Shown here: piece by piece, positions 10,400 through 53,715 of the stretch
Layout: each line of letters begins with the position of its first letter
How positions within the stretch are numbered: position 1 is the stretch's first letter
From: a virus
Strand: one strand, 5' to 3'
DNA: 55,954 bases
IMG/VR virus record: IMGVR_UViG_3300032047_000018
Coordinates: 1 to 55,954 of that record
Notes under the pieces: generated by a model
Database searches by the model: none
Told to the model about the DNA's origin: nothing
Seen by the model: only the letters and a program-made list of their open reading frames with translations
Made by a program: the position numbers and the translations under genes

Positions 10400-10557
10400 T
10401 TCTTTTTTTCTTTTTTAACATCTCTCCACTTTGCTACTGTATATCCTATAGTAACAAGTAAAAGAATTACTTTAAGGCCGTCTTCTATTTGGGTAAATGT
10501 AGTTACACCCACTGTGCCTGCGTTTAAAACGTATAATTTTAGATCCTCGATAGTCAT
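10396..10557 (-). CDS. Small holin-like membrane protein (53 aa)
   Basis: A 53-residue ORF between the giant gene and the endolysin, overlapping both (TAATG upstream, ATGA downstream). It has an N-terminal polar region, one clear transmembrane segment (LKVILLLVTIGYTVAKW, residues about 28-44) and a C-terminus of KKEKKK. This is the shape of small phage holins or membrane-anchored lysis proteins. A second holin candidate of a known family lies at 53263-53715, so which one times lysis cannot be told from sequence. Confidence 0.65.
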   Translation of the reverse strand: MTIEDLKLYVLNAGTVGVTTFTQIEDGLKVILLLVTIGYTVAKWRDVKKEKKK

Positions 10558-20603: not shown

Positions 20604-21236
20604 TTATCCGCCCATTAGTTTATCCATAGAAAAACCTCCAGAGCTTCCTACTCCAGATCCGACCGCAGCGCCCGCCAAACCTGTGACTCCACCTATTATA
20701 GAAGATGTTGCCGCGTCTCTAGCCGCGTTAGCCGCACCTAATCTTTGTTGAGCCATACCAAACATCGTATCTACCTTGTCTTTTTCTTGAGCTCTTGATT
20801 GATACGCCCCTTGTATTTCTTGTTGTTTTAATTGAGCGGCCATTTGTCTTTCCGCAGCTTGGTTAGATGCCTCTTGTTGGCCAATACTCACGGCTGCTTG
20901 CTGGGCATTAGAGGTTTGTTGATTCGCCATTGACTGCGCCAAGGCTGCTATACCAGAACCACCAGCGCTTTGCTGTAATGCGTCCATTGTATTTGCCATA
21001 CCTTGGTTTTGCTGCGCGGCTATATAATCTGCTTCTTGTGTGTTTACTGTTAAATCTTCATAAACATTTTCCTGATTAGCATACAAATTAGATGTGTCCG
21101 CATTTTGCATGCGTTCCTTCATTTGATTGTATTCTCTCTGAGCTGCTCGTTGTTCTTGTTTTCTTTTTTTGCTACCAATGATTCCGCCAGCAATACCGGC
21201 CAAGCCTTGAATAGCACCCATTACTGGTACTGCCAT
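20604..21236 (-). CDS. Internal virion protein, T7 gp14-like
   Basis: A 210-residue protein with the layout of T7 gp14-type core proteins: a hydrophobic glycine-rich start (MGAIQGLAGIAGGIIGSKKR), a long Q/A-rich coiled coil (AQREYNQMKERM, then QQTSNAQQAAVSIGQQEASN), and a glycine-rich hydrophobic C-terminus (IIGGVTGLAGAAVGSGVG). In T7 such proteins leave the capsid first and form the outer-membrane part of the ejection channel. Its place next to the 421-residue and 2918-residue proteins supports an ejectosome module. The assignment is by composition and order, not by residue-level similarity. Confidence 0.7.
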   Translation of the reverse strand: MAVPVMGAIQGLAGIAGGIIGSKKRKQEQRAAQREYNQMKERMQNADTSNLYANQENVYEDLTVNTQEADYIAAQQNQGMANTMDALQQSAGGSGIAALAQSMANQQTSNAQQAAVSIGQQEASNQAAERQMAAQLKQQEIQGAYQSRAQEKDKVDTMFGMAQQRLGAANAARDAATSSIIGGVTGLAGAAVGSGVGSSGGFSMDKLMGG

Positions 21237-29400: not shown

Positions 29401-31056
29401 AGCCGCTGATTCTGATGTAAATACCGGAGATTGTCTTCCGTATTTATCAGAGTATACAACACCAACTTGATATGTTCTCTGCGATTTTATAGATGGGTGC
29501 GATACACCTGGTGTAGGTGGTAACGCATATCCCGCTTGATCCGGGTTTAATGTTGTATTAGGTGCAATTACAATATCTATTGTTGGCTTAATTGTTTGAT
29601 TTAAGTCATTTAATAGCGTATAATTTTGAACATAATTACCAAATATTAGCCTGTTAGCACTTATTTCTAAACTTTTAGCATATCTTGGAACATTGTCATA
29701 TGGCCTTAATATTTGATTAGAAGGTAACACAGAGCTAATAATTTCTGATTGTATATCATAAGTATTAGCCGTCCATATTTCATCATCTCTTTCAAAAGAA
29801 TCTACCTTATATACATTGGTGTTTGAGGTTTCTTTATATAACAACTCAACTTCTTTTACGTTGTCAGGTATGTCATTTGTAATAAAATTACTTATAAGAC
29901 ATTGCCTTAATGTATTTTTCATTCCTAAGTTGTACCCTTGGAACGTGTTATATTCAAATTCACCAGGTAAAAAGGCTACCTCAGAAAATGGTGAGAATGC
30001 AGAAAATTGGTTATCTTCATATTTCCATCGATATGCAAATGAGGGAAATTTAAATTCAAATAAAGGATCGTCTTCTTCTAAAGTAACATCCCATGGTAAT
30101 GCTACTGCTGAAACATTTTCTGAAACAGACAATACACTTACCTCTGCAAATGTTTGTGTTAGCCCTTGAGGAACACTAACAACTTGCACTCTTGCCTCGA
30201 AATTTACTTCGACTTGGTCGTCGTCTTCGGCACTGGTAGTTAGAATTAATACGTCATTTACACTATAGTAAGGATATGGCGATTGAAGCCAATTTAGTGT
30301 AAGTAAAGAGCCTGGGGGTAAAGGAACAAATCCAGTATTGCCTGGGTCAAATCCGATTGGAGCAGACTCGGTAAAGTTAGCAGATGTAGTGTTATTAACA
30401 ACCACAGGATTACCGTCAGGATCAGTAGCTCTCGTATTTGCTAGGTCTAGTATCGGAGCTGTAGTAGGATATTTTTTAATAACTGTTATATCCTCTTCTT
30501 GAAAGTCCCTTGTTATAACGCCGTTAGTATAAGTGGTGTGCGTTAAAAAATTAGTTGAACCATTTTTAAATGTTTCAATTGTAATAGATTTAGGTTCAGT
30601 TTGATTATCAGTCCACATTAATATGCCTTCCAATATACTTATACCTGTAATTAAATAATCTTTACTAAATTTTAATATATTTTGAGTGTCTACTAAAACA
30701 GGAGCTATTGTATCTGTTTTTTGATCATACTCAGCAATAGCACTAATACCACTTGACGCAAGAAACCAATATATTTTTTCGTTGATATCATCTCTTATAC
30801 TACCTATAGTGCATGGGTAATACATGTTGGGTATAAAGTCATTGCCCCATTCAGTTATAACACCTGTTTGCGGATTAAGCGTCTTGTTATTATTAACAGC
30901 GTTACCTAATACAGTTTGTAAAGATCCGACATTGCTACTTTCAGAAGTTGATATTTCTAAATTTAAAGAATCTCTATATTCGCCATTAGGTACTAATCTT
31001 TCATCGAGGTCTTTATTCATTTTCCCCGATGTAAAGTTGTGTATTACTTCTGGCAT
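26434..31056 (-). CDS. Very large tail protein (nozzle/stabilisation-type, P22 gp10 / T7 gp12 position)
   Basis: A 1540-residue protein. The N-terminus NFTSGKMNKDLDERLVPNGE, followed by YRDSLN and VGSLQTVLGN, has the look of phage stabilisation or tail-nozzle proteins (G-K-x-N-x-D-x-D-x-R-L-x-x-x-G-E-Y-R-x-x-x-N). Many short beta repeats follow (LWARDTDLITFCEDKVLSVP near 1155, PRPYAGEYGISKNPES near 1200), compatible with a beta-propeller. It is about twice to three times the size of T7 gp12 or P22 gp10, so extra domains, mainly between 600 and 1100, have been added. It is encoded next to the adaptor-like proteins. I infer that it closes the distal end of a short tail. Confidence 0.7.
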   Translation of the reverse strand: MPEVIHNFTSGKMNKDLDERLVPNGEYRDSLNLEISTSESSNVGSLQTVLGNAVNNNKTLNPQTGVITEWGNDFIPNMYYPCTIGSIRDDINEKIYWFLASSGISAIAEYDQKTDTIAPVLVDTQNILKFSKDYLITGISILEGILMWTDNQTEPKSITIETFKNGSTNFLTHTTYTNGVITRDFQEEDITVIKKYPTTAPILDLANTRATDPDGNPVVVNNTTSANFTESAPIGFDPGNTGFVPLPPGSLLTLNWLQSPYPYYSVNDVLILTTSAEDDDQVEVNFEARVQVVSVPQGLTQTFAEVSVLSVSENVSAVALPWDVTLEEDDPLFEFKFPSFAYRWKYEDNQFSAFSPFSEVAFLPGEFEYNTFQGYNLGMKNTLRQCLISNFITNDIPDNVKEVELLYKETSNTNVYKVDSFERDDEIWTANTYDIQSEIISSVLPSNQILRPYDNVPRYAKSLEISANRLIFGNYVQNYTLLNDLNQTIKPTIDIVIAPNTTLNPDQAGYALPPTPGVSHPSIKSQRTYQVGVVYSDKYGRQSPVFTSESAATILQKPEANQYNRITATMTSLPPEGFDYFTWYIKEASQPYYNIAMDRWYEADDQNIWISFPSSERNKIDENTFLELKKQHDNDEFVSDPARYKVVAIANEAPIFIRERIKTFGTLDNDPNNTFCFQNGSGDGQGQFPLPEYAYMQMKLGSDTNPAQGTWNRSPLKEAASETLNPQVMRIVGNTGKSDWYDVASISETVNGLGADVIQINIEGRFGDDMAFTSIDGTGDTQTSGLQFELAAKVYEQKPEYEGRFFVKLYRDLALEKYILANANEDNYSIKNATQVGYASGSYGKSYWKDRGDGNVFIDNVTAATGGNGTGWASTTQGADVIYRMDLSFSGVPPDKDKDFNVGHTTLKRYADFVDGLEAVGQRFRWRQDPGIGTEAEPEEQGIYEITASNKVTRIRNYEADSKSGSFAQSSNKRTRYEIEYKLVSGTGGFNPTIGNNQWTNQSDCYVMELLAPFFIEKSFSSTNPGIWETEPAEAVDLDIYYKASDLIPISNHGDINSPQPYDLNWYNCYSFGNGVESDRIRDDYNASTLGNGPIASAPLDEPYAEERKTTGFIYSGLFNSISGINNLNQFIQAESITLDINPRFGSIQKLWARDTDLITFCEDKVLSVPANKDILFSAAGNTAVTASNKVLGTPRPYAGEYGISKNPESFANYGFRAYFTDKARGAVLRLSSMPGGGGNGLTPISEYGMIDFFADNLASSTLCIGGFDDNKKAYNLYLDPLASEWQNEFKSKRVNSSGDWEDYIPQSTVLSFKEKVTGWETRKSFENIEGLISLNNVFYTWKDGMLWRHGIQSQPRLNFYGIQYDSSINFLINEMPDVVKSYKTLNYTGSKSKQYLYSNAQYQDKTAAEMIAISFIPTSQTVYKDGWYTEYLTTNLQTGGVNEYVEKEGKWFQYLKGDDTFFNTNTDNNVDSHDFSVQGIGRGIVTGDLLSSYNVHIFINPSCYLGTVAPVANNMVYTVSEDCTTTCAVLQLDALDSNP

Positions 31057-33632: not shown

Positions 33633-35129
33633 CTAAGTAGCTTTGAATAATACAAAGTTGTTAGCGGCTTGCGTACACATTGTTCTCTCCGATAAGAAGT
33701 TAACAGTCATTGTGTCTGCGTCACTTGTATAGTTACCACCAACTGAACCAGTTACCCAAGATTTTAACCTTCTGTCATCAGCTTCAGAAGCTCTGTAGCG
33801 AATGTGTAAGAATGGTCTTGAAATATTCTGTCCTAATTGTTGATCGTAAACTGTAGAAGTTCCTGCTGGTACTAACACACCTTTAATATCGTCAATAAGT
33901 CCTCTAGTTGTAGAGTCATTTAGATATTTCCAGTCAGTTTTGTAAAAGTCATATGCTCCACGTCTGAAACCAGAGAATCCTAAGTTAAGCGCCATATCTT
34001 CAGAGTTATCAAATACACCATAAGATGTACCTCCTGCTCCGTAAGAATTTTGCTGTGCTAACATAGTATCAATATCAAGAGATGTCTGTCTGTCTAAGAA
34101 TAACATGTTCTCTTCAATTGCTCCCTGCTTATCAAGCTCTTGTAGAATAGTATCGAACTGATCGATTCCTGAACCACCAGCAGCTCCCGCAGGTTCTGCA
34201 AATGCTGGGTCATTATATACCAATCCTCTTTCTTCTAGTGTAGCAAATAAACCTTGCATACCTTGTAGGTTTCCACCTTGGAATCCTGTAAAGCCTGGTA
34301 CACCTGCTACCACTTGCTCTACATTCTTTGATTCTACCATACTCATTTCTAAGTAATCTTCGAATCTAATTCTAGACTCGTGCTCAGATTTTAAGTACCA
34401 TAGATAACCACCTGTACCAATTTCAGTAGTAACTTCAACCCATCCGATTTGAGCAACGTCTGAACCGTTTACTTCATACTTATCTCTGATGATAATTGGT
34501 TGATTACTAAAACTTGTAAAGGAAGCATCAATAGAATTTCCACCCTCTGGTGATCCTTTTTTGTATTCTGAACCGAAAACAAATAAGCTTAACTCCCCAC
34601 CTGCAGCAGCTCCTTGAAGGGCTACATCTAGTACGTTGTTAGCGTCATCATATACATCAATATTGTATGTTTGCAAACCACCTGCAACAGGTCCTGCTAA
34701 ACTATTAATGTAAATATTATTTGTATCGTTTCCAAGTGCGATAACACAAGTCATACCAGGTCCTAAAAGTGGTACATTCCCATCAGCTCCCGGAGAAGGT
34801 AATGAAATTGTTTGTCCACCCGGGCCTGCGCCTGGTGCATTTGATGTAACTGTATCATATGCAATGTGTAATCTTCCTTGTTCTGACCAAACTACTTGGT
34901 CTGATGCCATAGGCATCTCTGCCCCTACCATTCTTAAGAAACCAGTAATCGTTCTGTTTCCATAACGCTCTACTTCTTTCTCGTAAACTTCAGGTAAAAA
35001 TTGTTGAGTCCAAGTCATATCGGCTAGTGATAAATAGTTATCACCAAATAAACCTTGTACGGGTCTTGGAGTCAAATGCGCTAAGTTGGCCAACGTTGGT
35101 GGCGCTTGCGCAAATCCTGGTGCTGCCAT
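33633..35129 (-). CDS. Major capsid protein
   Basis: A 498-residue protein in the canonical place: portal, scaffold, capsid. The N-terminus is a Pro/Ala-rich arm (MAAPGFAQAPPTLANLAHLT), then a helical segment (DMTWTQQFLPEVYEKEVERY) like the long helix region of HK97-fold capsids, and a C-terminal beta/helix part (RPFLHIRYRASEADDRRLKS; MTVNFLSERTMCTQAANNFV). The size suggests an HK97-fold core of about 330 residues with a large inserted domain, here probably residues 100-250, which are glycine-, asparagine- and alanine-rich. It starts seven bases from the scaffold stop and is followed by a strong hairpin terminator. Not similar enough to T7 gp10 to identify by eye. Confidence 0.82.
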   Translation of the reverse strand: MAAPGFAQAPPTLANLAHLTPRPVQGLFGDNYLSLADMTWTQQFLPEVYEKEVERYGNRTITGFLRMVGAEMPMASDQVVWSEQGRLHIAYDTVTSNAPGAGPGGQTISLPSPGADGNVPLLGPGMTCVIALGNDTNNIYINSLAGPVAGGLQTYNIDVYDDANNVLDVALQGAAAGGELSLFVFGSEYKKGSPEGGNSIDASFTSFSNQPIIIRDKYEVNGSDVAQIGWVEVTTEIGTGGYLWYLKSEHESRIRFEDYLEMSMVESKNVEQVVAGVPGFTGFQGGNLQGMQGLFATLEERGLVYNDPAFAEPAGAAGGSGIDQFDTILQELDKQGAIEENMLFLDRQTSLDIDTMLAQQNSYGAGGTSYGVFDNSEDMALNLGFSGFRRGAYDFYKTDWKYLNDSTTRGLIDDIKGVLVPAGTSTVYDQQLGQNISRPFLHIRYRASEADDRRLKSWVTGSVGGNYTSDADTMTVNFLSERTMCTQAANNFVLFKAT

Positions 35130-35135
35130 AATTTA

Positions 35136-36389
35136 CTATTTTAAATGTTTAAATGTTTTAATTTTAAGTTTACTGCTATCATTCCCCGAACCAACTGATC
35201 TAACATTCCAACCATTGGCAGTCTTAACATCTGAATGGACACCTCTCGCCCCCATCTTAACGTTTTTGGCTTTTGTTGTACTGTCTTTAATTGCATCTGC
35301 TTTACCTTGTTCGTAAAAGTGTTTTGCAACTTGATCTGGATTCATAGCTGTAAATAAGCTTTTATGATAACCGGAGGCATCTGACATTTCATTATTTTCA
35401 TTCAAGAACTTCTTGACAAAATTGTTAATGTCGCTCTGGCTATCCTTGACCTTGTTTGCGTCTTTAACATTAAACCTATATTTTTTATCGCCGACGTTAT
35501 ATTCAAAACCTTTGAAATCGTCATTGAAAACTTGGTTTGTTTTATTTAAAAACGCATCAGTCTGCTTTTTAGCTACGGATGATTGCTCTTTTTGTTCTTT
35601 ATTATATCGGTTAAAGAACTCTACCGCTTTTTGTTGTTCCGGTAATAATTTACTACCGCCTTTTATTTCTGCATAATATTTAGATTTTAATCCATCTAAA
35701 TAATTTTTTGCATTAGCAAGTTCTTCTTTTCTTGCTATTTTCTTTTTTCTAATATCTTTTTCATCGTCTTCATCTTCATTATAAGAAAACTTATCTTCCA
35801 TAATAAAGTTAATTTCGTCTCTATCAAGATGAGGTTTCGATGTTTGATAATACTCTGCTAATAGTTGATTTTCATTTAATGAATCATAATCAGTATTTAG
35901 CTTTACGTAGTCTTCTAAACTACCTCCTGTTTCATTTACAAAGTCTACAACCTTTTGAATGTTTTCAGGCAATTCTATACCAGATTCTTTTTGTTCCGCT
36001 ATTGCTTCAGCTACATCTTCTTTTAATTCTTGTGTAACTTCTTGCGTTATTTCCTCTTTCTTTTCTTCCGTTATTTCTTCAAGTACAGTTTCTTCTACTG
36101 GTTTTTCAGGTACGGATTCTTCAGCTTGAACGGGCTCTGGTTGTTGTGGTATTTCTTTTTCCACTTCTTGTACAGGTTCGGCTTGTTTATCTGTAACCAC
36201 GTCTGCTGCTTCTTGCTTTGTATTGGCATCTTGTTCTGGTTTTTTAGTTAAATCAAGTTTTATATTACCAGTTTCCTCGTTAATAACGGCTGGTCCTGTT
36301 TGAGCTGGAGATTCTTTAACTTCAGCTTCTTTTGTTTTTTTGGTGTTTTTTATTTTAAAACTACCTTCTGTTTTTGCTGCTTTAGCCAT
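35136..36389 (-). CDS. Capsid scaffolding protein
   Basis: A 417-residue, highly charged protein. Residues 1-135 are low-complexity, rich in E, K, P, Q, T and V (KPEQDANTKQ, QQPEPVQAEESV, EEITEEKKEEITQ), predicted disordered, followed by helical/coiled-coil stretches (RKKKIARKEELANAKNYLD; LLPEQQKAVEFFNRYNKEQ). The C-terminus is basic and ends KLKIKTFKHLK, similar to the capsid-binding helix-turn-helix end of scaffolding proteins. It lies directly between portal and major capsid genes, as scaffolds do. It should leave the prohead or be degraded during maturation; no protease motif is seen in it. Confidence 0.8.
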   Translation of the reverse strand: MAKAAKTEGSFKIKNTKKTKEAEVKESPAQTGPAVINEETGNIKLDLTKKPEQDANTKQEAADVVTDKQAEPVQEVEKEIPQQPEPVQAEESVPEKPVEETVLEEITEEKKEEITQEVTQELKEDVAEAIAEQKESGIELPENIQKVVDFVNETGGSLEDYVKLNTDYDSLNENQLLAEYYQTSKPHLDRDEINFIMEDKFSYNEDEDDEKDIRKKKIARKEELANAKNYLDGLKSKYYAEIKGGSKLLPEQQKAVEFFNRYNKEQKEQSSVAKKQTDAFLNKTNQVFNDDFKGFEYNVGDKKYRFNVKDANKVKDSQSDINNFVKKFLNENNEMSDASGYHKSLFTAMNPDQVAKHFYEQGKADAIKDSTTKAKNVKMGARGVHSDVKTANGWNVRSVGSGNDSSKLKIKTFKHLK

Positions 36390-38856: not shown

Positions 38857-41067
38857 CTATTTTATTATTTTTGATAATTCCCCATTTTGTTTATACTTTG
38901 CAAAGCTTAAATTAATAGGTGATCTTTGTAATTTATTTGTTGGTCTATACAGATCTTTATGACAAGCCATTACTGCTAATCCCGAACTTATAGCCGCATC
39001 AAATTTTGTTCTATTATTTATATCAAATTTAGCCCAATCATTTAATGTGTCTGTAAAATACATAGAACCGTAGTTACCATTGGATTGCAATCCTACGTGT
39101 TTATCTATATACATTTCTATAGCAGCTGCGTGAGCTTGCTTAATATCTTCACTTGAGTTAGGTATTCCACCAACTTCTCTTTCTGAAACTGATAACTTGT
39201 TCCATAATTTGTCAGGCCTATTCATTGAATATCCTCTATAACCGCGCCTTTTTAAATAATATAATAACCTAGGTTTATTATTTTCTGCTAATATTGGCAT
39301 TCCATAAAATACTATAGCCATTAAAACATCTTCAAAAAACATTTCAGCTGTTTGCGGTCTTGCTATATATTCTAAAAAAAATGTGCTAGGGGGTGCATCC
39401 TCCATGCTGAATTTAGTTAACCCATGCAACGCGCCTTTAGAACCTTTGCCGTCTGTTGTACCTGATATATCGTAACTGTCACAACCAAAAGCACCCACGT
39501 GTTCTAATCCCGGCCATCTAACTCCATTCTTTATTATCTGCCTATTTTGTAACTCATAAGAAGGAGTCCAGCTTATTAAAAACCTTCCATTTGGGTTTGG
39601 CGTAAAAATTACTTTTGAATCTTTAATACCATTTTCCCACATAAAACTACCGCGAGTTAATACATTACTATGCCGTAAATCTTCGTTGTAATCTATTTGT
39701 TCGTATATTTTTACTAAATTAAATATACTATTTTTGGTTTCATCCCTAAACGCATGCTCCTCTGTACGTGGAAACTGTCTGTAATACTCGTTTAGAGCGT
39801 CCTGGTCACCTTTTAAACCTTCAGCTTCGTTATTCCAATGCTCTATGACTCCGACGTCTATAATGTCCCCGTATGGCCCAACTTTTTCTTCTTCTGGTGT
39901 GTTGAATACAGGTATGCCATGAGAATCAATGAATCCTTCGTAGTTCCATTCCATAGGTATGAACAAAGAATATAGTCCGCTGCGAGTCTGTCCATTGGCG
40001 TTTCTTTTTGTGACATCTGAATCATTGTATAATCTTTTAAAATTGTCACCACCTTTGTCTAAAGCGTTTGATGTGCTTCCCATCATACACTTACCTATTA
40101 CTCTACTACCTAGTCTTAACGTGGTTTTCGTAACCCTCCAGTTGTTGAGGATGTTGTTCGGCCTTTCCCATTTGCCCGATTCGTCATGGACGAGAAGTTT
40201 AAGCTTCTCCCCGTCGTATGCGTTGTCACCGGTGTTCTTCCAATCGATCGTGGTGTCGAGACCCGATAAGGTTTCAACGGCGGTGTTATTGTCAAGTTTA
40301 CGTCTTGTGAACTTGGACGCTGGAACACGATAGGCGAGCTCGGTTTTGGGGCGGTCCATACCGTCCTGTATTGGTTTGAAAAAGAAGGGGTAATTAACCG
40401 ATATCGGTACCACCTTATCGGTAAACATCTTTTTCGCATCAGCCCCAGACTTGGATAGTATACCATATCGTGAATCGGAATTAATAGTGGCGAGATTAAC
40501 GGTTTCTCCAGAGGCCATAAATGAAAAGCCAGACCGTCTATTCTTGAGGTAGCACATCCCATAGGATCTGGAATCTGCCTTGCAAGCTTCCCAGAAAATG
40601 TAGAATAATCTATTTGCTTCGCGAAACTCTGGCTTCCCAACATCAATCTTGGACCACTGCAAGTACATAAAGTGAGTACCAGTAATGTAAGTAGCCACAC
40701 CTTTATTATTGAACCAATGGCCTTTTTCTCTTTTGTTAAACTGTTCATCGATATATGTGCCCCATTTTGATTTAAACTCTTCGGGATATTCTCTCCAATC
40801 AAATATACTTTTAATTAGTTTTAATTCCTTCGGATATTCCGCGGGCGTCCACTTGTCATTTGATTTGTCTAACTTTGCTGGTGCTTTTGGCAAAGCTATC
40901 TTCAGATTCTGTATATTATATATTTCTCCGATTTGGCCCGACTTACTTATAACAACTACATCATGCTCTTTGTTATAACCATACTTCCATTTCTTACTCT
41001 TATTTAGTCTAGATAAAGTAGTTTGTTTAATTGGTGTTATTACACTATATAAACTTTGTTCGTACAT
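38857..41067 (-). CDS. Terminase large subunit
   Basis: A 736-residue packaging motor. The ATPase domain has LKNRRSGFSFMASGE near residue 178, a divergent Walker A (ending G-F-S instead of G-K-S/T), and LKLLVHDESGKW near 295, Walker B plus the catalytic Glu. A coupling-type S/T motif appears in MMGSTSNALD near 335. The nuclease domain has the first metal Asp in VGAFGCDSYDISGTTDG near 530 and later acidic motifs (DTLNDWAKFDINNR). It drives DNA into the prohead through the portal and cuts concatemers. Codon use in about 40110-40690 is clearly more GC-rich than in the rest of the gene. The start overlaps the TerS stop by one base. Confidence 0.87.
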   Translation of the reverse strand: MYEQSLYSVITPIKQTTLSRLNKSKKWKYGYNKEHDVVVISKSGQIGEIYNIQNLKIALPKAPAKLDKSNDKWTPAEYPKELKLIKSIFDWREYPEEFKSKWGTYIDEQFNKREKGHWFNNKGVATYITGTHFMYLQWSKIDVGKPEFREANRLFYIFWEACKADSRSYGMCYLKNRRSGFSFMASGETVNLATINSDSRYGILSKSGADAKKMFTDKVVPISVNYPFFFKPIQDGMDRPKTELAYRVPASKFTRRKLDNNTAVETLSGLDTTIDWKNTGDNAYDGEKLKLLVHDESGKWERPNNILNNWRVTKTTLRLGSRVIGKCMMGSTSNALDKGGDNFKRLYNDSDVTKRNANGQTRSGLYSLFIPMEWNYEGFIDSHGIPVFNTPEEEKVGPYGDIIDVGVIEHWNNEAEGLKGDQDALNEYYRQFPRTEEHAFRDETKNSIFNLVKIYEQIDYNEDLRHSNVLTRGSFMWENGIKDSKVIFTPNPNGRFLISWTPSYELQNRQIIKNGVRWPGLEHVGAFGCDSYDISGTTDGKGSKGALHGLTKFSMEDAPPSTFFLEYIARPQTAEMFFEDVLMAIVFYGMPILAENNKPRLLYYLKRRGYRGYSMNRPDKLWNKLSVSEREVGGIPNSSEDIKQAHAAAIEMYIDKHVGLQSNGNYGSMYFTDTLNDWAKFDINNRTKFDAAISSGLAVMACHKDLYRPTNKLQRSPINLSFAKYKQNGELSKIIK

Positions 41068-41881: not shown

Positions 41882-42106
41882 TTACCATGAGAGATCGTAT
41901 TCGACGGATATCGACATGTTTTTGTTAAAGTCCTTCCAGGGCATTAACATATCCTCTTTTGTTATATAGATGGAGTACTTATCTTCTTCCTCTATTATAT
42001 TAGCTATAGTATGCCCGCCATACACTTCTTGCCCAACAGCATAATGCATAGCGTCATTCTTATAGTCTTTACCGACACTAATCTTTCTTATTATCTGCTG
42101 CGACAT
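41882..42106 (-). CDS. Hypothetical small beta protein (74 aa)
   Basis: A 74-residue protein (MSQQIIRKISVGKDYKNDAM at the start) with alternating strands and an acidic C-terminal WKDFNKNMSISVEYDLSW. It overlaps the upstream coiled-coil gene by 29 bases and is one base away from the GroES-like gene. I see no motif. It belongs to the pre-terminase cluster of small genes and may be an assembly factor or a morphogenesis-linked regulator. Confidence 0.5.
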   Translation of the reverse strand: MSQQIIRKISVGKDYKNDAMHYAVGQEVYGGHTIANIIEEEDKYSIYITKEDMLMPWKDFNKNMSISVEYDLSW

Positions 42107-42500
42107 CGGTATATTCTCCAGTTTTTAAATCAATGTTAACAGAACCATATACATCTTCTAACTTTTTTTGTTCAGCTTGAACAACTTCGGCGGCGGCTTT
42201 TATTGCTGTCAACAATTGAGCTTTATGAGCTTCAAGACCACCGATTTGCATTTGAATTTGATTAACTTGATTTACTGCGGCTTGAATAATTTGTAATTCT
42301 TCCGCTTTAATTTTGTTTACTTTTTTTGCCATTTTATTTGATTTAAGTGATTTATAAGGAAAAGCTTTATTTAACTTTTCTTTTCTAGTTTTACAACCGC
42401 AATCTTTTCCGGTTGCTTTCGATATGGTATCAACTACTTTTTTGATACCTGTTGCTTTAGTGATTTTTTCTATTGTATCACCAAGTCCTTTTGATTTCAT
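42078..42500 (-). CDS. Two-part protein: GLGDTIEKI/CGC segment joined to a coiled coil (140 aa)
   Basis: Residues 1-50 contain GLGDTIEKITKATGIKKVVD and a K-D-C-G-C segment before KAFPYK; residues 57-140, from an internal Met in NKMAKKVNKIKAEE, form a coiled coil (QIIQAAVNQVNQIQMQIGGL) and end in VNIDLKTGEYTDVA. The second part could be translated by itself from the ATG at 42332. Proteins resembling each part separately recur in marine phage genomes as far as I can recall, so this looks like a fusion of two small genes or a gene with two starts. Function unknown. Confidence 0.55.
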   Translation of the reverse strand: MKSKGLGDTIEKITKATGIKKVVDTISKATGKDCGCKTRKEKLNKAFPYKSLKSNKMAKKVNKIKAEELQIIQAAVNQVNQIQMQIGGLEAHKAQLLTAIKAAAEVVQAEQKKLEDVYGSVNIDLKTGEYTDVAADNKKD

Positions 42501-42824
42501 TTAACAATTCCATTTACGTCTAGCCGCTTTACCTCTTTCTCCAGTCCACCCACGAGATCTAGCGCAAAATGATTTACGTCTTTTTGCAGCCTTGCTATCT
42601 GGATCTAATTTGGAAGGAGGGGTTGTAACAGCTGTTTTTAAATTACCTCCTGTTTTTCTATTATAATTCGCTACACCTTTAGCGGTCATTCCGCCACCTG
42701 CATCTTTTCCAGTACCGCCTCCTTTTTTAACTTCGGCGTAATTGCCAGACTTTTTGTTTCTTGCTGGCGCATAAGACTTAGATTTAGCTTTTTTGAATGG
42801 TGAGTTGTGTTGTATATATGCCAT
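42501..42824 (-). CDS. Small basic protein with C-rich DUF6321-like end (107 aa)
   Basis: A 107-residue, strongly basic protein. It begins MAYIQHNSPFKKAKSKSY and ends FCARSRGWTGERGKAARRKW plus NC, the pattern of the DUF6321-like basic domain found in phages (a K/R-rich core with C-A-R ... W-N-C). The N-terminal S-P-F-K resembles the S-P-A-K motif of the neighbouring genes. One base separates it from the next upstream gene (shared at 42824). The composition suggests nucleic-acid contact or packaging in the virion. The domain name is from memory. Confidence 0.6.
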   Translation of the reverse strand: MAYIQHNSPFKKAKSKSYAPARNKKSGNYAEVKKGGGTGKDAGGGMTAKGVANYNRKTGGNLKTAVTTPPSKLDPDSKAAKRRKSFCARSRGWTGERGKAARRKWNC

Positions 42825-43810
42825 TATTTCCCAAAGTATTTAAGTTTCATAGGCGCACCTTTTCTAAAGAATTTTGATTTTTTCGGGGCTGCAGTTTTCA
42901 CTTCTTTTAAAGGTATATCTAAATTTTTTTGCTCTTCAACACTTAATTCATTTTGCTTTAAATCTCTACCTTCACCCCTAACAGTCCCTTGAGTGCCTAA
43001 ATAATTAGCCCCATACCCGGAAGTTTGGTTTTGCTTGCTTTGATTTTTTACATTAGTTAACTCGTTGTCAGAAATTTCATATCTACTTTGTGCTTTTGAA
43101 AGTTTATTTAAATCGCTTTGACTTAAATTGTCATTAGCCTTAAAGTTGCCTTCTGCATCAAATGTTCCATACTTGCCCATTTGTCTTCTATACTTGCCTA
43201 CTCTTCGACTCGTATGTATTCCACTTCTTATATTATTACGTCTTTGCAAAGAAGTTTGAGCGGTACCAGAATCGTTAGTTCTTAAGGTTAATTCACCTTT
43301 TTCGAGTTTGTCGTCTTCACCAGTTGTTGTATCTGGTTCTGGATCTTTAATATTTTCATCTGCCCATACGCATCCCTTAACGCCTCTTTTACGAGAGCCA
43401 TCTGCATTATAACATTTTTCTTTAAAGGATTTATCTTGCGCAGCGGTTGAATCGGGTGTATCTTGTACACACTTACCCGCCGCATTCTTAGTAAAACCTT
43501 TGCCACAACCACCTTTTTTAGTAATTAAGTCGCCGGCTGTTGTTCTTTTTTTAACAGTTTTTATAGTGCCATCAGGACCTAGCTCTTGATTCTGGGAAGT
43601 CTCTACGTGCCCAGGCTCATGCGCTTTTAAGGGGCTAATGTTTATAGAAAACCCTTTTTTTTTAGCTGGCGATTTTGTAGCAGCGTCGCTAGTGGTGTTG
43701 TCCCCGTATACGCCGGCTGGCCCAACATTAAGAATAGGCTCTGTAACACCTTTCTTTTGATTGAATAAACCTTTGTTTACTCTAGCTGTTATTGGTATAT
43801 TTTTTCCCAT
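42824..43810 (-). CDS. Basic low-complexity protein with SPAK motif (328 aa)
   Basis: A 328-residue K/G/T/N-rich protein, mostly disordered. It has S-P-A-K-K-K near residue 47, S-P-L-K near 59, a cysteine pair region (GGCGKGFTKNAAGKCVQD; GVKGCVWADENI) and ends RKGAPMKLKYFGK. No folded enzyme motif. It is the longest member of the S-P-A-K cluster and shares a base with the next gene. Likely a DNA-binding or virion-internal protein, by composition only. Confidence 0.55.
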   Translation of the reverse strand: MGKNIPITARVNKGLFNQKKGVTEPILNVGPAGVYGDNTTSDAATKSPAKKKGFSINISPLKAHEPGHVETSQNQELGPDGTIKTVKKRTTAGDLITKKGGCGKGFTKNAAGKCVQDTPDSTAAQDKSFKEKCYNADGSRKRGVKGCVWADENIKDPEPDTTTGEDDKLEKGELTLRTNDSGTAQTSLQRRNNIRSGIHTSRRVGKYRRQMGKYGTFDAEGNFKANDNLSQSDLNKLSKAQSRYEISDNELTNVKNQSKQNQTSGYGANYLGTQGTVRGEGRDLKQNELSVEEQKNLDIPLKEVKTAAPKKSKFFRKGAPMKLKYFGK

Positions 43811-43824
43811 GATTAGTTGTTATG

Positions 43825-44322
43825 TTATAATTTAAATTCCGAAATATCCGGTATTTCTAGTTCTGTGTCAAATTTTTTTCCTGTAAACGAAGCAAATGGA
43901 TTGTCATCCTCTTTACTTACATCGTTACTTAGGTTCGCGGTTTTCGCTGGTGGCTTTTGATCTCCAAATCCTTTTTTCACTTCAGCGGCATAATCAATGC
44001 CTCTTTTGCTAGCTAATACATCTTTCTCTCCTTCTATTAAAGCCATGTTCATTTTTGCTGGAGATTTAGACTTGGTTGTTATTGGATTAGCCATGTCCCC
44101 ATTATAGCCATCTTGAAAGTAAGCTTCACCTCCATAAAAATTTTTATTTAATTTGGCAGGAGATCGTCTTTTAGCAAACATAGCTTCAGCTTCTTTCAAA
44201 TGTACTCTACCACCAACCCCTTGTCTAGGGCCTGGCGCAGACTTCTCTTGAAAGCCGCTGGCGTTTCTATTGTCTGATATTTTATTAAGCTCCTCAGCTT
44301 TTCCTCTAAAATTTATTGCCAT
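43825..44322 (-). CDS. SPAK-motif protein (165 aa)
   Basis: A 165-residue protein with two exact S-P-A-K motifs (KRRSPAKLNK; KSKSPAKMNM) and a variant P-P-A-K. The C-terminal 30 residues are acidic (KFDTELEIPDISEFKL), in contrast with the basic first half. It starts MAINFRGKAEEL. It shares one base with the DUF5872-like gene upstream. No family or enzyme motif. Confidence 0.55.
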   Translation of the reverse strand: MAINFRGKAEELNKISDNRNASGFQEKSAPGPRQGVGGRVHLKEAEAMFAKRRSPAKLNKNFYGGEAYFQDGYNGDMANPITTKSKSPAKMNMALIEGEKDVLASKRGIDYAAEVKKGFGDQKPPAKTANLSNDVSKEDDNPFASFTGKKFDTELEIPDISEFKL

Positions 44323-44579
44323 TATTTTTTATATTTAGTTACTCTGCCTTTTGTATCTTTTTCTCTTTTTGCAGCTGCTTTTTCACTAGGTGATAATTCG
44401 CTCCAGGTTGCTGGTGTTTTACTTGAAACTCTTTTAGTTGGCCTAAAAGTATTTTCACCACCCTCATAGCCTTTCTTGCCGCTGGGTGTTCTCCAATCTT
44501 CTTTAAACCATCGTTTAAGTGCTGCACCCTCTTTGGTTTTTCTAACTTGTAGAGGTGAACCTTTCATTTTAAAAGCCAT
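44322..44579 (-). CDS. Small basic DUF5872-like protein (85 aa)
   Basis: An 85-residue basic protein starting MAFKMKGSPLQVRKTKEGAA. The segment LKRWFKEDWRTPSGKKGYEG and then RPTKRVSSKTPATWSELS with SPSEKAAAKREK resembles the DUF5872 group, small basic proteins found in phages and large DNA viruses, with the RPxKRVSSKTPxT core. S-P-L-Q near the start belongs to the motif series of this cluster. It shares a base at each end with its neighbours (TAATG), so the cluster is co-translated. Role unknown; probable DNA or virion association. Confidence 0.65.
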   Translation of the reverse strand: MAFKMKGSPLQVRKTKEGAALKRWFKEDWRTPSGKKGYEGGENTFRPTKRVSSKTPATWSELSPSEKAAAKREKDTKGRVTKYKK

Positions 44580-45061
44580 TATTTTTTTGAATTACCCCAA
44601 TTAGCAGCTCCAACTTTTCTACATTTGGCCATTGCTCCACTTCTATATGCAGAATTTTTTGGACCATACCTGGCAACTACCTTTTTATAGCATGCATCTT
44701 TTTTTAATGGTGAAGAATTTTTATATGCTTCATCTTCCCATTCAAAATCAGGATGCCCTTCATTCATAGTTTCCCTATTATAAACTTTAGCTGGAGATTT
44801 AGTGTCTTTTTTCCAAGTTACGGTTTGATTATCATACTGCAACCTTCCTTGTGCCATTTGATCTAAATGCACTTTTTCGTGATCAACCGCTTCTTTAACT
44901 TTTTTGTCAGACAGTTTTGAATTAACAAATATAGTACCATCACGATTTGCTTCGCCTTCTATACCTTTCTCTAAATCATCTTTTAAAATAATAGGTTTTC
45001 CAAATTCGGAGTCTTTATGTATTCCGAACACGTCATGTAACGGACGAAGTTTAAATGCCAT
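44579..45061 (-). CDS. HExxH zincin-motif protein with basic C-terminal domain (160 aa)
   Basis: A 160-residue protein starting MAFKLRPLHDVFG. Residues about 60-85 (KVKEAVDHEKVHLDQMAQG) contain H-E-x-x-H, a metallopeptidase zinc site, inside a small domain with preceding strands (GTIFVNSKLSDKK). A linker with S-P-A-K (TKSPAKVYN) and S-S-P-L-K follows. The C-terminal 40 residues (ACYKKVVARYGPKNSAYRSG and CRKVGAANWG) form a cysteine/basic domain like that found in other small phage proteins. It may be a virion protease; the third zinc ligand is not certain, and inactive zincin folds exist. Confidence 0.6.
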   Translation of the reverse strand: MAFKLRPLHDVFGIHKDSEFGKPIILKDDLEKGIEGEANRDGTIFVNSKLSDKKVKEAVDHEKVHLDQMAQGRLQYDNQTVTWKKDTKSPAKVYNRETMNEGHPDFEWEDEAYKNSSPLKKDACYKKVVARYGPKNSAYRSGAMAKCRKVGAANWGNSKK

Positions 45062-45426
45062 TACTTAGAGTATTTACCGCCTTCTTTATTACCGTAGCCT
45101 CCTTTGTTCGCTGCTTGCGCATTTTCTGCATAATGTTTACGTGCAGATTTGCTTAAGCTTTGATTAGACGCTTCTTTAATATCATAAGACATTCCTTTGT
45201 TCATTTTTTTAGCTGGAGAATCATAATCTGCTTTAGAAGCTGATTGATCGCCATGAGATGAACCATCTTTGCCTTTATAACCTTTATCTGTACCTTTGTA
45301 ATTTTTGTAATCTGATCTGCTTGCAGATTGATCACCTTTCATCGCACCGTATTTTTTAGCTGGTGAACCTTTATCACCACATCCTATTTTGTTAGGGCCG
45401 ATACCTTTAAATCCTGAATATGCCAT
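45061..45426 (-). CDS. SPAK protein with internal GDQSAS repeat (121 aa)
   Basis: A 121-residue, very polar K/G/S/Y-rich protein starting MAYSGFKGIGPNK. It has two copies of G-D-Q-S-A-S-(R/K)-(S/A)-D-Y (KGDQSASRSDYKNY and HGDQSASKADYDSP) and two S-P-A-K-K motifs (GSPAKKYG, DSPAKKMN). It is predicted disordered. It shares one base with the next gene. No catalytic feature. It probably works as a flexible binding or packaging protein. Confidence 0.55.
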   Translation of the reverse strand: MAYSGFKGIGPNKIGCGDKGSPAKKYGAMKGDQSASRSDYKNYKGTDKGYKGKDGSSHGDQSASKADYDSPAKKMNKGMSYDIKEASNQSLSKSARKHYAENAQAANKGGYGNKEGGKYSK

Positions 45427-45447
45427 TGTTTATTATTTATTTGTTAG

Positions 45448-45984
45448 TTAATCTATTTTTTTTTGTGACCCTAATCCGCCGCCACGTGATTTGTTTTCTC
45501 TTGCTTTTTGCTTTGCTGTAGGTCCTGATCCGGCACCTTTCATTTTTGCATTAGCAACTTTGCCGGCAATTTTAGTAGCTGCCTCTTTTGATTTGCCTTG
45601 TTTTTCAAGCTTGCTTACTAAACCTTTAAAGCTTTTAGCTGGGCTACTTTTCTTTTTGCCTATAGCTTTATCTACAACTTTCCCAACAACAGCTTTGCCT
45701 AATGCTCCTGCCACGGCTCCTAGTATTTTAGCCGGGGATTCAGGTCCAATATTTTTAGGTCCAATTTTTGCTGGTGAACCTGCTATGTCATCAATGGGCA
45801 TATACTTGTTCAAATTTTTTCTTTCTTGAGATGCTGATTCTTTTTTGCCTGGCGCAGCCTCTATTTTAGCTTTTAGATGATCAGGCAATTTGTGCTGATC
45901 TCCCTTCAATGCTTTTTGCGCAGGACTTGGAAAATTTAAAGTCTTCTTTAAAAGAGGAGACTTGGGGTTCATTTTAAATGCCAT
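45448..45984 (-). CDS. SPAK-rich basic protein (178 aa)
   Basis: A 178-residue lysine/alanine-rich protein beginning MAFKMNPKSPLLKKTLNFPS. It has three exact S-P-A-K motifs (GSPAKIGP, ESPAKILG, SSPAKSFK) plus S-P-L-L-K and S-P-A-Q-K, an alanine/glycine-rich weakly hydrophobic helix (AVAGALGKAVVGKVVDKA) and a basic tail (KQKARENKSRGGGLGSQKK). It is the first gene of the cluster in transcription order. The composition recalls histone H1-like or DNA-compaction proteins, but without proof. A membrane-active peptide in the middle is possible. Confidence 0.55.
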   Translation of the reverse strand: MAFKMNPKSPLLKKTLNFPSPAQKALKGDQHKLPDHLKAKIEAAPGKKESASQERKNLNKYMPIDDIAGSPAKIGPKNIGPESPAKILGAVAGALGKAVVGKVVDKAIGKKKSSPAKSFKGLVSKLEKQGKSKEAATKIAGKVANAKMKGAGSGPTAKQKARENKSRGGGLGSQKKID

Positions 45985-46427: not shown

Positions 46428-46681
46428 TCTACAATAACCACATCACCAATTGTAATAACTTGGTAAAGTGTGCCGTTCCATTCGATACCATGACCTGCAT
46501 GCTTGTCATATCTAATTATATCGCCGTTCTGTATATGTTCAACCTTATCCCCTACACTAACCACCTTTGCTTTTAAGTACCTAATGTCGTTATTATTTTT
46601 TTCTGTAATTTCCAAACCACCTACTTTCTTCGGCGCTTCCTTAATTTTATCTATTATAATAAAGTAATTAATTGCTTTCAA
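46424..46681 (-). CDS. groES: GroES-like co-chaperonin
   Basis: An 85-residue GroES-like barrel. MKAINYFIIIDKIKEAPKKV aligns with the GroES N-terminal strand and mobile loop, ending in G-G-L-E-I (the hydrophobic tripeptide that contacts GroEL apical helices), followed by AKVVSVGDKVEHIQNGDIIR and a closing VITIGDVVIVE strand. Slightly shorter than E. coli GroES (97 aa), as the roof loop is short. It overlaps groEL by 14 bases, forming the chaperonin operon. It would work with the phage GroEL to fold large virion proteins such as the capsid. Confidence 0.82.
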   Translation of the reverse strand: MKAINYFIIIDKIKEAPKKVGGLEITEKNNNDIRYLKAKVVSVGDKVEHIQNGDIIRYDKHAGHGIEWNGTLYQVITIGDVVIVE

Positions 46682-48275
46682 GAGATCTTACGTTTGAGAT
46701 TATACAATCAGCAGATACTATTGTTGTGGCAACACTTATCGCATTTTTTAATGCAGCTTTTGTTACTGATATAGGGTCTACAATTCCAGCATCTACCATA
46801 TCTTTATAACAACCACATGTAGCATCTATCCCCATTCCTTGCCATTTAGAATCTTCCATTTCATTTTCAGGATCCTCTGTGACTTCTTTAGGAGTAAACA
46901 CATTTGATATACCAGCATTTTCTAATATAGCATGGTATGGCTCTTGTATTGCGTTTAAAAGAAGACCGTACCCGTCGTTTTTTATTTCAATTTCCTGTGC
47001 GGCATTGAGTAAAGCAACACCACCTCCAGGAACAATACCCTCTTGTAATGCAGCTTTTGTAGCATGCAGAGCATCTTCTACCCTATCTTTCTTTTCTTTT
47101 AACTCCACTTTAGAATCGGCCCCTACGTAAATTACCCCAACCTTACCAGTTAACATAGATAAACGCTGCTCTAATTTCTTTTTTAAATAACCGTTCTTTT
47201 CGTCTTTTATTTTCTTTTCAACATCTATTATTCTTAAAGCAACCTCTTCATTTGCTTCTGATACTTGTAATGTTGTAGTCTTGTGATCAGTAACCGCCTT
47301 TGCGACTTGGCCTAAACAATCTGGTTGAATTAAATCTAAATCATCCCCAAGCTCTTCGTTAATTACTTTAGCTCCTGTTAATATTGCTAAATCCTCTATT
47401 GAATCTTCTTTTGTTGTTGCAAATCCAGGGAGGTCAACTATATTTACTTTTATATTACCTTTAGCATTATTAGCGACTAAGGTAGCCCAGGGTTGAGCTT
47501 CTAATGTTGCAACTATTAATAAAGGTTTTTTGTTTTTTATAACAAACTCTAATATATTTTGTATACGTCTTATGTTTGGAATTGGTGAACTTACTATTAA
47601 TACGTAAGGATTATCTAATATGCAAGTACCCTTGCTTTTATCTGTTATCAGATAGGTTGATTTCATTCCTGAATCAAATTGTACGCCATCAACAAATTCA
47701 ACATAAGTTTCATTTGTTTCTGACTCTTCCATCAGAACGATCCCATTTTTTCCAACTTTTTCAAAAGCTTCGCCGATTTTTTCTCCAAGCGTAGAGTCAT
47801 TGTTACATGAAATGTAAGCCACTTGCCTAAGCATATCATCCTTAACCGGAATACTGGCGTTATCAAGATATACCAAAATTTCTTTATGGCATTCAGAAAT
47901 GCCTTCTTTAATGTCTCTAATCGTTTCTTCACCTGCGTATGAATTTATATTATGTAATAAAGAGTGAGCAAGAACGGTAGCTGTTGTTGTACCGTCCCCT
48001 GCTTCTCTTACCGTGTTTGTGGCTGCTTCTTTTATTAAAGTAGCTCCAATGTTTTCGACCGGGTCTATCAAGACTACGCTTTCCGCAACGGTTACACCAT
48101 CTTTTGTTATCACCGGTCGGCCCATTGCGTCTTCATATATAACGCATTTTCCAGAAGCTCCAAGAGTGGATCTCACTGCGTCCGTTAATTTATTAACGCC
48201 AGCCATTATTTTATTTCGCGCTTCATCGCCGAAATTCAGATCTTTAACAATCTGACTTGGTAATTTAAATTCCAT
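46668..48275 (-). CDS. groEL: Phage-encoded GroEL chaperonin
   Basis: A 535-residue GroEL. Equatorial ATP-binding motifs are GDGTTTATVLAHSLL and, near the C-terminus, GIVPGGGVALLNA; the apical domain is present, with the helical protrusion region (IRRIQNILEFVIKNKKPLLI). The typical N-terminus (NKIMAGVNKLTDAVRSTLGA) is kept with the YEDAMGRPVITKDGVTVA segment. The length is just under E. coli GroEL (548); the C-terminal GGM repeat tail is missing. Sequence divergence from bacterial GroEL is considerable. Complete GroEL genes are uncommon in phages and imply a strong folding demand by giant virion proteins. Confidence 0.95.
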   Translation of the reverse strand: MEFKLPSQIVKDLNFGDEARNKIMAGVNKLTDAVRSTLGASGKCVIYEDAMGRPVITKDGVTVAESVVLIDPVENIGATLIKEAATNTVREAGDGTTTATVLAHSLLHNINSYAGEETIRDIKEGISECHKEILVYLDNASIPVKDDMLRQVAYISCNNDSTLGEKIGEAFEKVGKNGIVLMEESETNETYVEFVDGVQFDSGMKSTYLITDKSKGTCILDNPYVLIVSSPIPNIRRIQNILEFVIKNKKPLLIVATLEAQPWATLVANNAKGNIKVNIVDLPGFATTKEDSIEDLAILTGAKVINEELGDDLDLIQPDCLGQVAKAVTDHKTTTLQVSEANEEVALRIIDVEKKIKDEKNGYLKKKLEQRLSMLTGKVGVIYVGADSKVELKEKKDRVEDALHATKAALQEGIVPGGGVALLNAAQEIEIKNDGYGLLLNAIQEPYHAILENAGISNVFTPKEVTEDPENEMEDSKWQGMGIDATCGCYKDMVDAGIVDPISVTKAALKNAISVATTIVSADCIISNVRSLESN

Positions 48276-53262: not shown

Positions 53263-53715
53263 TTATTTTTTTATTATTGATCCCACCTTTTCTGCTCCTC
53301 GCGATCCAAAATAGGCAACGTATACTGTTGTTGTTAATGTTTTAAGTAAGCTAATCCATTCTTGTTCTACTGTAAAATCTATATACCCATGACTATCTAC
53401 CCATATAAAAGATATAGTCATAAATGTAAGAAAAATTAAACTCATAGGCCTTGTATTTTTACTAAGCCATGAATCCGATTTCATATCTGCTTTCCAGCGA
53501 GCACTTACTTCTTGTGCTTCAATCATATCATGCTCCAATAACTTTAGAGCCATCTCTTTATCTGGTGGAGGTAAGTTATCGTCTTTATCAATCAAACCTT
53601 TTACTACACCAAGTAATCCTTTGTCTGGCAAAACATCTGCTAGCGAATCTAATACTCCAGATTTTCCTAATAGGAATTGTCCGACTTTGGTTTCTTTAAA
53701 TTTTTTTTTTGGCAT
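53263..53715 (-). CDS. Holin of the GTA-holin/3TM type
   Basis: A 150-residue protein. Helical N-terminal part (VGQFLLGKSGVLDSLADVLP), then KSDSWLSKNTRPMSLIFLTF, the signature W-L-S-K-x-x-R-P of the 3TM holin family (gene transfer agent and related phage holins), followed by one strongly hydrophobic segment and a second (WISLLKTLTTTVYVAYFGSR). It should form the lysis lesion in the inner membrane that lets the M15 endolysin act. The other candidate holin, at 10396-10557, is next to that endolysin; the two may have different roles or timing. Confidence 0.78.
   Translation of the reverse strand: MPKKKFKETKVGQFLLGKSGVLDSLADVLPDKGLLGVVKGLIDKDDNLPPPDKEMALKLLEHDMIEAQEVSARWKADMKSDSWLSKNTRPMSLIFLTFMTISFIWVDSHGYIDFTVEQEWISLLKTLTTTVYVAYFGSRGAEKVGSIIKK

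Follow-up and report, generated by a model that had tools for sequence, protein, structure and literature searches.

The internal proteins of phage T4 are diverse and, according to excerpts of three articles, have in common solely a capsid targeting sequence (CTS), through which they enter the scaffolding core (PMC3012670, PMC5694885, PMC10229621). In P22, the scaffold is required for incorporation of the ejection proteins, an effect attributed to N-terminal segments of gp7 and gp20 (excerpt of PMC8402733). Abundant protein cargo, comprising gp45, gp46 and RNA polymerase subunits, is located in the capsid and tail of phi-crAss001, a podovirus of a Bacteroidota host (excerpt of PMC10172136). 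Here we analyse the IMG/VR virus record IMGVR_UViG_3300032047_000018, whose whole stretch of 55,954 bases is referred to as the window. In it, seven minus-strand genes between those for GroEL and the terminase encode small proteins bearing the peptide SPAK or close variants of it. Comparison with related phages suggests, with a probability that we put at roughly 0.6, that S-P-[A/L/M/F/I]-[K/Q] (SPxK below) is a lineage-specific address gathering unrelated proteins in the assembling virion, most likely in the head together with internal (ejection) proteins.

The T4 CTS, carried by IPI, IPII and IPIII, and the lineage tag are both short N-terminal peptides on otherwise diverse small proteins. 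However, the lineage tag has a different sequence (MAFKMKGSPxK or SPxK) and is also found internally, in repeats and in a loop, and its part in packaging is predicted from sequence. The T4 CTS pattern is present in 0 of 43 lineage DUF6321 proteins, and models of the T4-type prohead protease (PF03420) and portal gave no match in the window record, where a distant or different protease is possible. The tag is best filed with capsid-targeting tags and, by these sequence and protease features, outside the T4 CTS family. We know of no shared short tag in P22 or T7. The N-terminal recruitment proposed for P22 gp7 and gp20 resembles the N-terminal tags of the lineage (excerpt of PMC8402733). The likeness of crassviruses to the lineage is that of a podovirus of a Bacteroidota host with protein cargo; SPxK is absent from phi-crAss001 gp45 and gp46, and the 49-kilobase region read holds two motifs.

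The cluster and the two genes between which it lies are as follows.

42501-42824, minus strand: DUF6321 protein (Pfam), N-terminal tag MAYIQHNSPFKK
42824-43810, minus strand: SPAK protein of 328 amino acids; SPAK at residue 47, SPLK at residue 59, C-terminal end GAPMKLKYFGK
43825-44322, minus strand: SPAK protein of 165 amino acids; a module of ~30 amino acids after the second SPAK, common to the N-terminus of 19325-20590
44322-44579, minus strand: DUF5872 protein (Pfam), N-terminal tag MAFKMKGSPLQ
44579-45061, minus strand: small HExxH (metallopeptidase-like) protein; SPAK at residues 89-92, C-terminal two-Cys domain, SPLK in the linker before it
45061-45426, minus strand: SPAK protein of 121 amino acids; start MAYSGFKG, two SPAK
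45448-45984, minus strand: SPAK protein of 178 amino acids; start MAFKMNPKSP, three SPAK and one SPAQ
45634-45645, minus strand: SPAK codons AGC CCA GCT AAA, an example of synonymous variation
38857-41067, minus strand: terminase large subunit (TerL; phrog_6681, E 6e-165), which serves as a lineage marker
46668-48275, minus strand: GroEL, the upstream boundary of the cluster, named from similarity to annotated relatives

The initial annotation had placed seven open reading frames here and had counted nine exact SPAK in five of them. Both statements proved exact: the frames are present at these positions, and the recount gave one SPAK in 42824-43810, two in 43825-44322, one in 44579-45061, two in 45061-45426 and three in 45448-45984, with none in the other predicted proteins of the window. 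The variants that it listed also occur in the cluster translations, namely SPFK (42501-42824), SPLK (42824-43810 and 44579-45061), SPLQ (44322-44579), SPAQ (45448-45984) and PPAK (43825-44322), while the wider motif SP[ALMFIVY][KQR] is found twice elsewhere in the window (SPLK in 26434-31056 and SPAQ in 35136-36389). Starts with MAFK or MAY number five (42501, 44322, 44579, 45061 and 45448) rather than the four reported, and MAFKMKGSPMKRNFGIG is a form of the tag peptide considered beside SPAK. The domain assignments stood, as both DUF6321 (E 1.5e-14, 54.8 bits) and DUF5872 (E 3.7e-13, 50.5 bits) exceed their Pfam cut-offs of 28.5 and 27.5, and so did the HExxH site, which reads HEKVH in 44579-45061. 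The description of the products as basic needs a qualification: all seven carry a net positive charge, three of them above +20 (+22, +21 and +27), but 43825-44322 (+3) and 44579-45061 (+7) are weakly basic.

The motif is far more frequent in the cluster than the composition of its proteins predicts. In 20,000 within-protein shuffles, SPAK was expected 0.076 times and reached a maximum of 3, against nine observed, and SP[ALMFIVY][KQR] was expected 0.28 times with a maximum of 4, against 14 observed. Among the codon strings that encode these 14 sites, 13 are distinct, and every codon for serine (six) and for proline (four) is used, so that the peptide and not the DNA is conserved. A reading of the motif as a DNA element was ruled out by this codon diversity.

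By its terminase, portal and virion genes, the window is placed near, yet outside, the cultured Flavobacteriia podoviruses. Its terminase matches the uncultured record MW202828 at 62% and Elemovirus at ~43%, with 87 matching records altogether, and its portal matches Maribacter phage Panino at 45.8% and Cellulophaga phi38:1 at 37.0%. Judged by such relatives, the hosts of the lineage are presumably marine flavobacteria. A TerL scan matched at least 600 stretches, and, judged by the contigs matched, this uncultured marine phage lineage is common.

Across the lineage, 1,822 non-redundant small proteins from loci with at least two lineage markers contain SP[ALMFIVY][KQR] 214 times against 38.7 expected. 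Reversed or permuted strings are not enriched in these proteins (36 against 37.6, 21 against 36.6 and 27 against 37.1 expected), the control strings SGxK (93 against 74.1) and SAxK (101 against 78.4) are slightly raised, and TPxK is weakly raised (46 against 31.3). Counted by placement over 1,592 proteins, there are 84 motifs in the first 30 residues (7.2 expected), 24 in the last 30 (8.2 expected) and 95 in the middle (20.9 expected). Loci anchored on the terminase, 41 in number (two named records and 39 of the 80 fetched), hold 59 motifs upstream of that gene against 9.7 expected, and 10 downstream against 14.7. The longer pattern MA[FY]KMKG[ST]P identified 44 stretches in a viral collection of 2.9 million contigs, of which 39 carry genes related to those of the window and five show none, and it was not found in a collection of 84,980 prokaryote species represented by one genome each. 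Motif density in the lineage is variable, from 1 to 16 per genome. In tag loci L085-L128, a second string, SALK, is also enriched (31 against 1.5 expected); it is part of another form of the tag, which resembles MAFKMKGSPxKxGTIxGTxxHxSALKQ.

The residues tolerated within the motif bear on the suggestion, made in the initial annotation, that it binds DNA. SPKK in histone H1 is a proposed DNA-binding motif, and the lineage motif likewise starts with S-P and has a basic end in most copies. The proteins might therefore be nucleoid-like, with SPxK touching DNA and any virion location secondary, a view consistent with the positive charge of all seven and with the structural label of small basic proteins encoded upstream of TerL in phi38:1 (gp69 and gp80, net +24). 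Unlike SPKK, however, the lineage motif has a mostly hydrophobic third position from which K and R are depleted, SP[KR][KR] being below expectation in the lineage small proteins (8 against 12.6), and it tolerates Q for K at the fourth position more often than expected (39 against 23.9). It is also carried by a folded HExxH protein and a transglycosylase. Direct contact with DNA thus appears improbable as the function of the motif.

A scan of related phages, which the initial annotation had proposed as a way of seeing whether the motif spreads to different domains, found it on unrelated ones. Among 16 fetched relatives and the window, the motif falls within the first 30 residues in 39 protein families, a count in which H was also allowed at position 3 and which includes the SPAQ of 35136-36389 and the SPLK of an SNase-like family (MYTYKISPLKVVDGDTI) that is probably a chance occurrence. 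Alignment of 94 of the 134 non-redundant tagged proteins found gives the consensus MAFKMKGSPxxxGxxxxxSPxK, with a mean column identity of 5%. The HExxH protein, DUF5872, DUF6321 and two-Cys domains are among the tagged bodies, as are many that belong to no family; against Pfam at E 0.01, nine families were matched, eight of them by a single member. PHROGs and Pfam searches of the tagged proteins gave few matches, and neither the bare tag nor a single tagged protein, used at full length, had a tblastn match in an annotated phage collection. The small basic protein gp80 of phi38:1, which bears a structural label, has by a second-round profile two homologues in the lineage that start MKGSPIRLKQ (L087:5728-5964) and MKGSPIKLKQ (L109:5267-5503). 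Our literature search returned no paper joining 'SPAK motif' with phage and virion, none containing MAFKMKG and none mentioning DUF6321, and for DUF5872 it returned one, in which the domain is listed in a table for an algal virus (excerpt of PMC12085832).

The HExxH protein 44579-45061 shows how the motif can be acquired. In 11 of 21 aligned homologues, forming the clade of the window, SPAK lies in a six-residue hairpin insert (VTWKxDTKSPAxVY, against VTWK------GKxY without it), which an AlphaFold2 model (mean predicted local distance difference test score, pLDDT, 69) places between strands 80-83 and 92-95. Since the insert sits between two strands, the motif has been added to folded proteins and not solely to disordered ones. 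E62, H65, E101 and E109 are invariant and H61 nearly so among the 21 sequences. Matches were found in 309 phage records, and among the 40 matches listed all fall in the C-terminal half. The best profile match in the PDB is a weak one to MJ1213 (E 0.025), which we take to be selecase; the model and fold search gave no reliable match, and the PprI/IrrE chains that topped the Foldseek list at E 0.08 were not used. We regard 44579-45061 as a putative small metallopeptidase-like protein, perhaps a gluzincin of the selecase kind, which would combine HExxH with an acidic third ligand farther downstream.

The presence of such a protein in the cluster raises the possibility that SPxK is a processing site, with cleavage at or near it during head maturation by the tagged HExxH protein or by a host protease, in the manner of gp21 in T4. 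The enzyme itself bears SPxK and its family is found in 13 of the 16 fetched relatives as well as in the window, and the T4 CTS is, according to an excerpt of PMC10229621, an address later removed by the prohead protease, so that both roles could coincide. On the other hand, the enzyme exists without the motif, since the motif is an insert in 11 of the 21 sequences, and many sites are internal or in repeats, where cleavage would fragment the proteins. The lack of a PF03420 match in the window, from a search that covered T4-type prohead proteases and no other protease types, also counts against this explanation, which we consider unlikely.

A further line of evidence for a virion address comes from three consecutive genes downstream of the tail genes, presumed to encode internal proteins. 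These and a fourth gene that bears the motif are listed below.

20604-21236, minus strand: presumed internal-block member of 210 amino acids in the T7 gp14 position; untagged in the window
19325-20590, minus strand: presumed internal-block member of 421 amino acids in the T7 gp15 position; N-terminal NQALIQGE..D.. module common to 43825-44322
10557-19313, minus strand: giant protein of 2918 amino acids in the T7 gp16 position; similar to the phi38:1 'structural protein' gp101
35136-36389, minus strand: acidic scaffold-like protein between the portal and the capsid-like protein 33633-35129; SPAQ at residue 27

The order of the block matches that of T7 gp14, gp15 and gp16, which are annotated in T7 as internal virion proteins, but the sizes differ from the T7 values of 196, 747 and 1318 amino acids. 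Across the lineage the three proteins span 200-294, 275-904 and 2,069-4,311 amino acids (one stretch, G017, stops before the giant). In small local databases, the window giant resembles two proteins labelled structural, elemoE gp18 (31% over 164 amino acids, E 7e-10) and phi38:1 gp101 (22% over 478 amino acids, E 1.5e-7), and 26434-31056 resembles the phi38:1 'structural protein' gp97; the phi38:1 record itself gives these labels as 'based on similarity'. A profile of 20604-21236 matches an elemoE 'virion structural protein' at E 3.4e-5 with strong composition bias, and gives weaker biased matches to a Panino virion structural protein (E 0.003) and phi38:1 gp99 (E 0.0094). Its AlphaFold2 model is helical (mean pLDDT 69.6), and a fold search gave no telling match.

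Homologues of all three block members carry the tag in some relatives. Among the unique orthologues of 20604-21236, 85 in number, 14 have the motif within their first 30 residues and none has it farther on, compared with a mean of 0.13 and a maximum of 2 in 2,000 shuffles. The G032 giant starts MIKNLKSPLKQ. SPLK stands at residue 19 of the G017 middle protein and at residue 12 of a G015 protein that contains an SLT transglycosylase domain (E 2.3e-9). Each open frame was read from its first ATG, and some true N-termini may thus be shorter. On a tree of the 20604-21236 orthologues built without the first 30 residues, in which some tagged rows are on long branches, tagged and untagged states require at least six changes, three of them forced by well-supported branches, and the tagged orthologues have differing N-termini.

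The small tagged proteins and the block also have a module in common. A profile of the 43825-44322 family, covering ~33 residues after SPxK, matches the N-terminus of the G001 middle protein at E 2.1e-5; its match to 19325-20590 in the window is weak (E 0.044, against 0.049 for the best of 7,314 shuffles). In reverse, a profile was built from the 48 of 72 middle-protein N-termini that begin in an L[IV]xG-like manner. It recovers 14 small proteins with E values between 4e-8 and 1.3e-3 (best shuffle 0.14), and reaches 43825-44322 itself at E 2.9e-5 through the identical copy L115_1030. In 13 of these 14 proteins, SPxK immediately precedes the module.

These results bear on two other explanations. 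The motif could be a by-product of domain shuffling, in which a leader is reused at gene starts and has no binding function, and MAFKMKG leaders are indeed alike in DNA (24 variants among 73) while standing before many different bodies. Internal SPxK copies, however, use diverse codons, and neither the loop insert of the HExxH protein nor the different N-termini and repeated tree changes of the 20604-21236 orthologues fit a reused leader, which makes this origin very improbable. Alternatively, the tag could direct proteins to a place other than the virion, such as the adjoining phage GroEL/GroES, a host membrane or protease, or an assembly factory. The cluster adjoins GroEL, and the tag genes of many relatives lie near GroEL, but GroEL is also present in cultured relatives that have no tag, and the tags on the presumed internal block together with the common module point to the virion. 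We therefore judge a destination outside the virion rather unlikely.

The DUF6321 domain is found inside and outside the lineage and appears to exchange one address for another. A loose SP tag, defined as SP[ALMFIVY] followed directly or after one intervening residue by K, Q or R, precedes the domain in 37 of 43 lineage proteins against 1 of 44 others (Fisher p 4e-17), whereas a CTS-like start (M..[FY]..[FYWH][LIVTC] at the N-terminus) is present in 0 of 43 against 13 of 44 (Fisher p 9e-5). The groups consist of unique proteins from loci with at least two markers and from loci with none; nine proteins from one-marker loci (five CTS-like, three SP and one neither) were left out of both. Over all proteins, the CTS-like base rate is 37 of 2,896 in lineage loci against 45 of 794 in unmarked loci, and that of SP in the first 30 residues is 146 of 2,896 against 17 of 794. 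T4 IPII and IPIII start MKTYQEFIAEA and IPI starts MKTFKEFTS; CTS-like DUF6321 proteins outside the lineage start, for example, MKTFKEFLEEA or MKSFREFLEEE. In single examples, GLWDNIHAKRKR bodies follow MAFKMKSPLK in the lineage and MKSFKDHLNE outside it, and a DUF5872-like body outside it, recognized by eye, starts MENFKEYIDE. The counts for other domains are small: among lineage proteins, SP is present in 2 of 2 with the IHAKRKR domain, 3 of 4 with the two-Cys domain and 5 of 6 with DUF5872, the last all from loci with markers.

The view that all CTS-like DUF6321 carriers are T4-like found no support: of 32 records searched, just those of L296 and L331, each with a CTS-like protein, matched the T4 protease and portal models, which gave no match in the 18 remaining records with a CTS-like or near-CTS form, many of which are short. 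A link of phi38:1 gp69 to DUF6321 was not used because of a weak first match (E 7.5e-4) and drift. The DUF6321 gene precedes TerL at a distance of 0-2 genes in six of nine named phages, S-CRM01, S-N03, P-HM2, MED4-213, S-TIP28 and Venkman (L357, L356, L355, L359, L351 and L352), some of them T4-like, some T7-like and some of other kinds. That of the window is also upstream of the terminase, four genes off, and that of S-IOM18 is farther from TerL and adjoins neck and small terminase genes. In a 619-amino-acid cyanophage protein (L268:2726-4585), the two-Cys domain is fused to DUF6321, and a stretch CWxGYxxVGMKKKGKKMVPNC is also present; in the window lineage these domains are found apart and bear SP tags, and DUF6321 and DUF5872 are likewise separate short, SP-tagged proteins there. 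CTS-like N-termini are found on at least two proteins per locus in L306, L318, L320 and L328, one such family having ..KLKHLEHVEDHV.. or similar after the start.

Several observations weigh against a virion address. The refuting outcome named in the initial annotation, a motif no more frequent in related genomes than composition predicts, did not occur within the lineage but did in the cultured relatives outside it: Panino has 3 motifs against 2.9 expected, phi38:1 has 5 against 2.6 and elemoE has 0 (pieces) or 1 (joined) against 1.7. The uncultured MW202828 has 0 against 1.8. These motif-poor cultured relatives have the same portal and terminase as the lineage, and the tag must be dispensable for internal proteins in general, given that they show no enrichment. 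In the lineage itself, 71 of the 85 orthologues of 20604-21236 are untagged. The internal-protein identity of the block is presumed from the order of its genes and from weak similarity; neither 20604-21236 nor the giant had a tblastn match in the whole collection, and no similarity of 20604-21236 to T7 gp14 was found (hhalign probability 0.1%). On DUF6321, the strict motif is present in 8 of 33 proteins where the locus has one or more markers, compared with 1 of 33 others, and CTS-like starts are rare outside the lineage on other cargo (two-Cys 1 of 8, IHAKRKR 1 of 5). The complete DUF6321 proteins of five isolates (S-TIP28, Venkman, HTVC028P, S-CAM4 and MED4-213) have neither tag. In S-SM1, whose virion underwent mass spectrometry, T4-GC119, the protein with DUF6321, is given as 'hypothetical', while S-B43 calls its version structural; the S-SM1 label does not support treating cyanophage DUF6321 proteins as proven virion proteins. 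Because the SP and CTS patterns were set after part of the data had been seen, kin sequences were counted repeatedly and only two of the CTS-like records searched hold T4-type protease and portal genes, we treat the DUF6321 exchange as supporting rather than decisive. Our search found no cultured member of the lineage and no analysis of its virions, and packaging is for that reason something that we infer.

The unrelated domains, the loop insert, the tagged block homologues and the DUF6321 exchange nonetheless support, by comparison, the earlier suggestion of a shared partner and a capsid-targeting or cargo signal. Under a virion address, the block would be internal to the virion, and the seven genes would encode accessory, mostly basic internal cargo (the HExxH peptidase-like protein, DUF5872, DUF6321 and others) that is packaged in the head, travels with the DNA and is injected. 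A single partner, which may be the scaffold, the portal or an inner shell, would bind Ser-Pro-hydrophobic-Lys, with the third residue in a small pocket, and SPxK repeats would add avidity. The acidic scaffold-like protein 35136-36389, with a net charge of -15 and a family that is negative in 19 of 19 members (two from outside the lineage), is a candidate binder of basic cargo. Once delivered, the cargo might act on host proteins or DNA, as the small HExxH enzyme and the basic Cys-containing proteins suggest.

More tentatively, and at somewhat less than even odds, the lineage may have evolved, independently of T4, a general virion cargo address, used at the N-terminus, in a loop and in repeats, that loads a varying complement of enzymes and basic proteins, along with some ejection proteins, into the head so that they are delivered into the host. 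If so, SPxK would be a minimal portable packaging code, a second capsid-targeting code beside that of T4 and unrelated to it in sequence, and marine phage lineages would trade cargo domains while swapping the address (SPxK or CTS-like). Such a sequence rule would help to close a long-standing annotation gap by predicting which phage proteins of unknown function are carried in virions and delivered to hosts. DUF5872, DUF6321 and the two-Cys domain, recurrent in marine phages but with no function assigned, would thereby gain a role that can be tested. The tag is short and portable and hence suited to reporter testing.

Two further features of the window concern neighbouring genes. The 140-amino-acid open reading frame at 42078-42500 resembles two joined proteins, and several relatives have two separate short frames there. 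A holin-like protein (phrog_3427) is encoded at 53263-53715, and its relatives in many tag loci sit between GroEL and the terminase instead.

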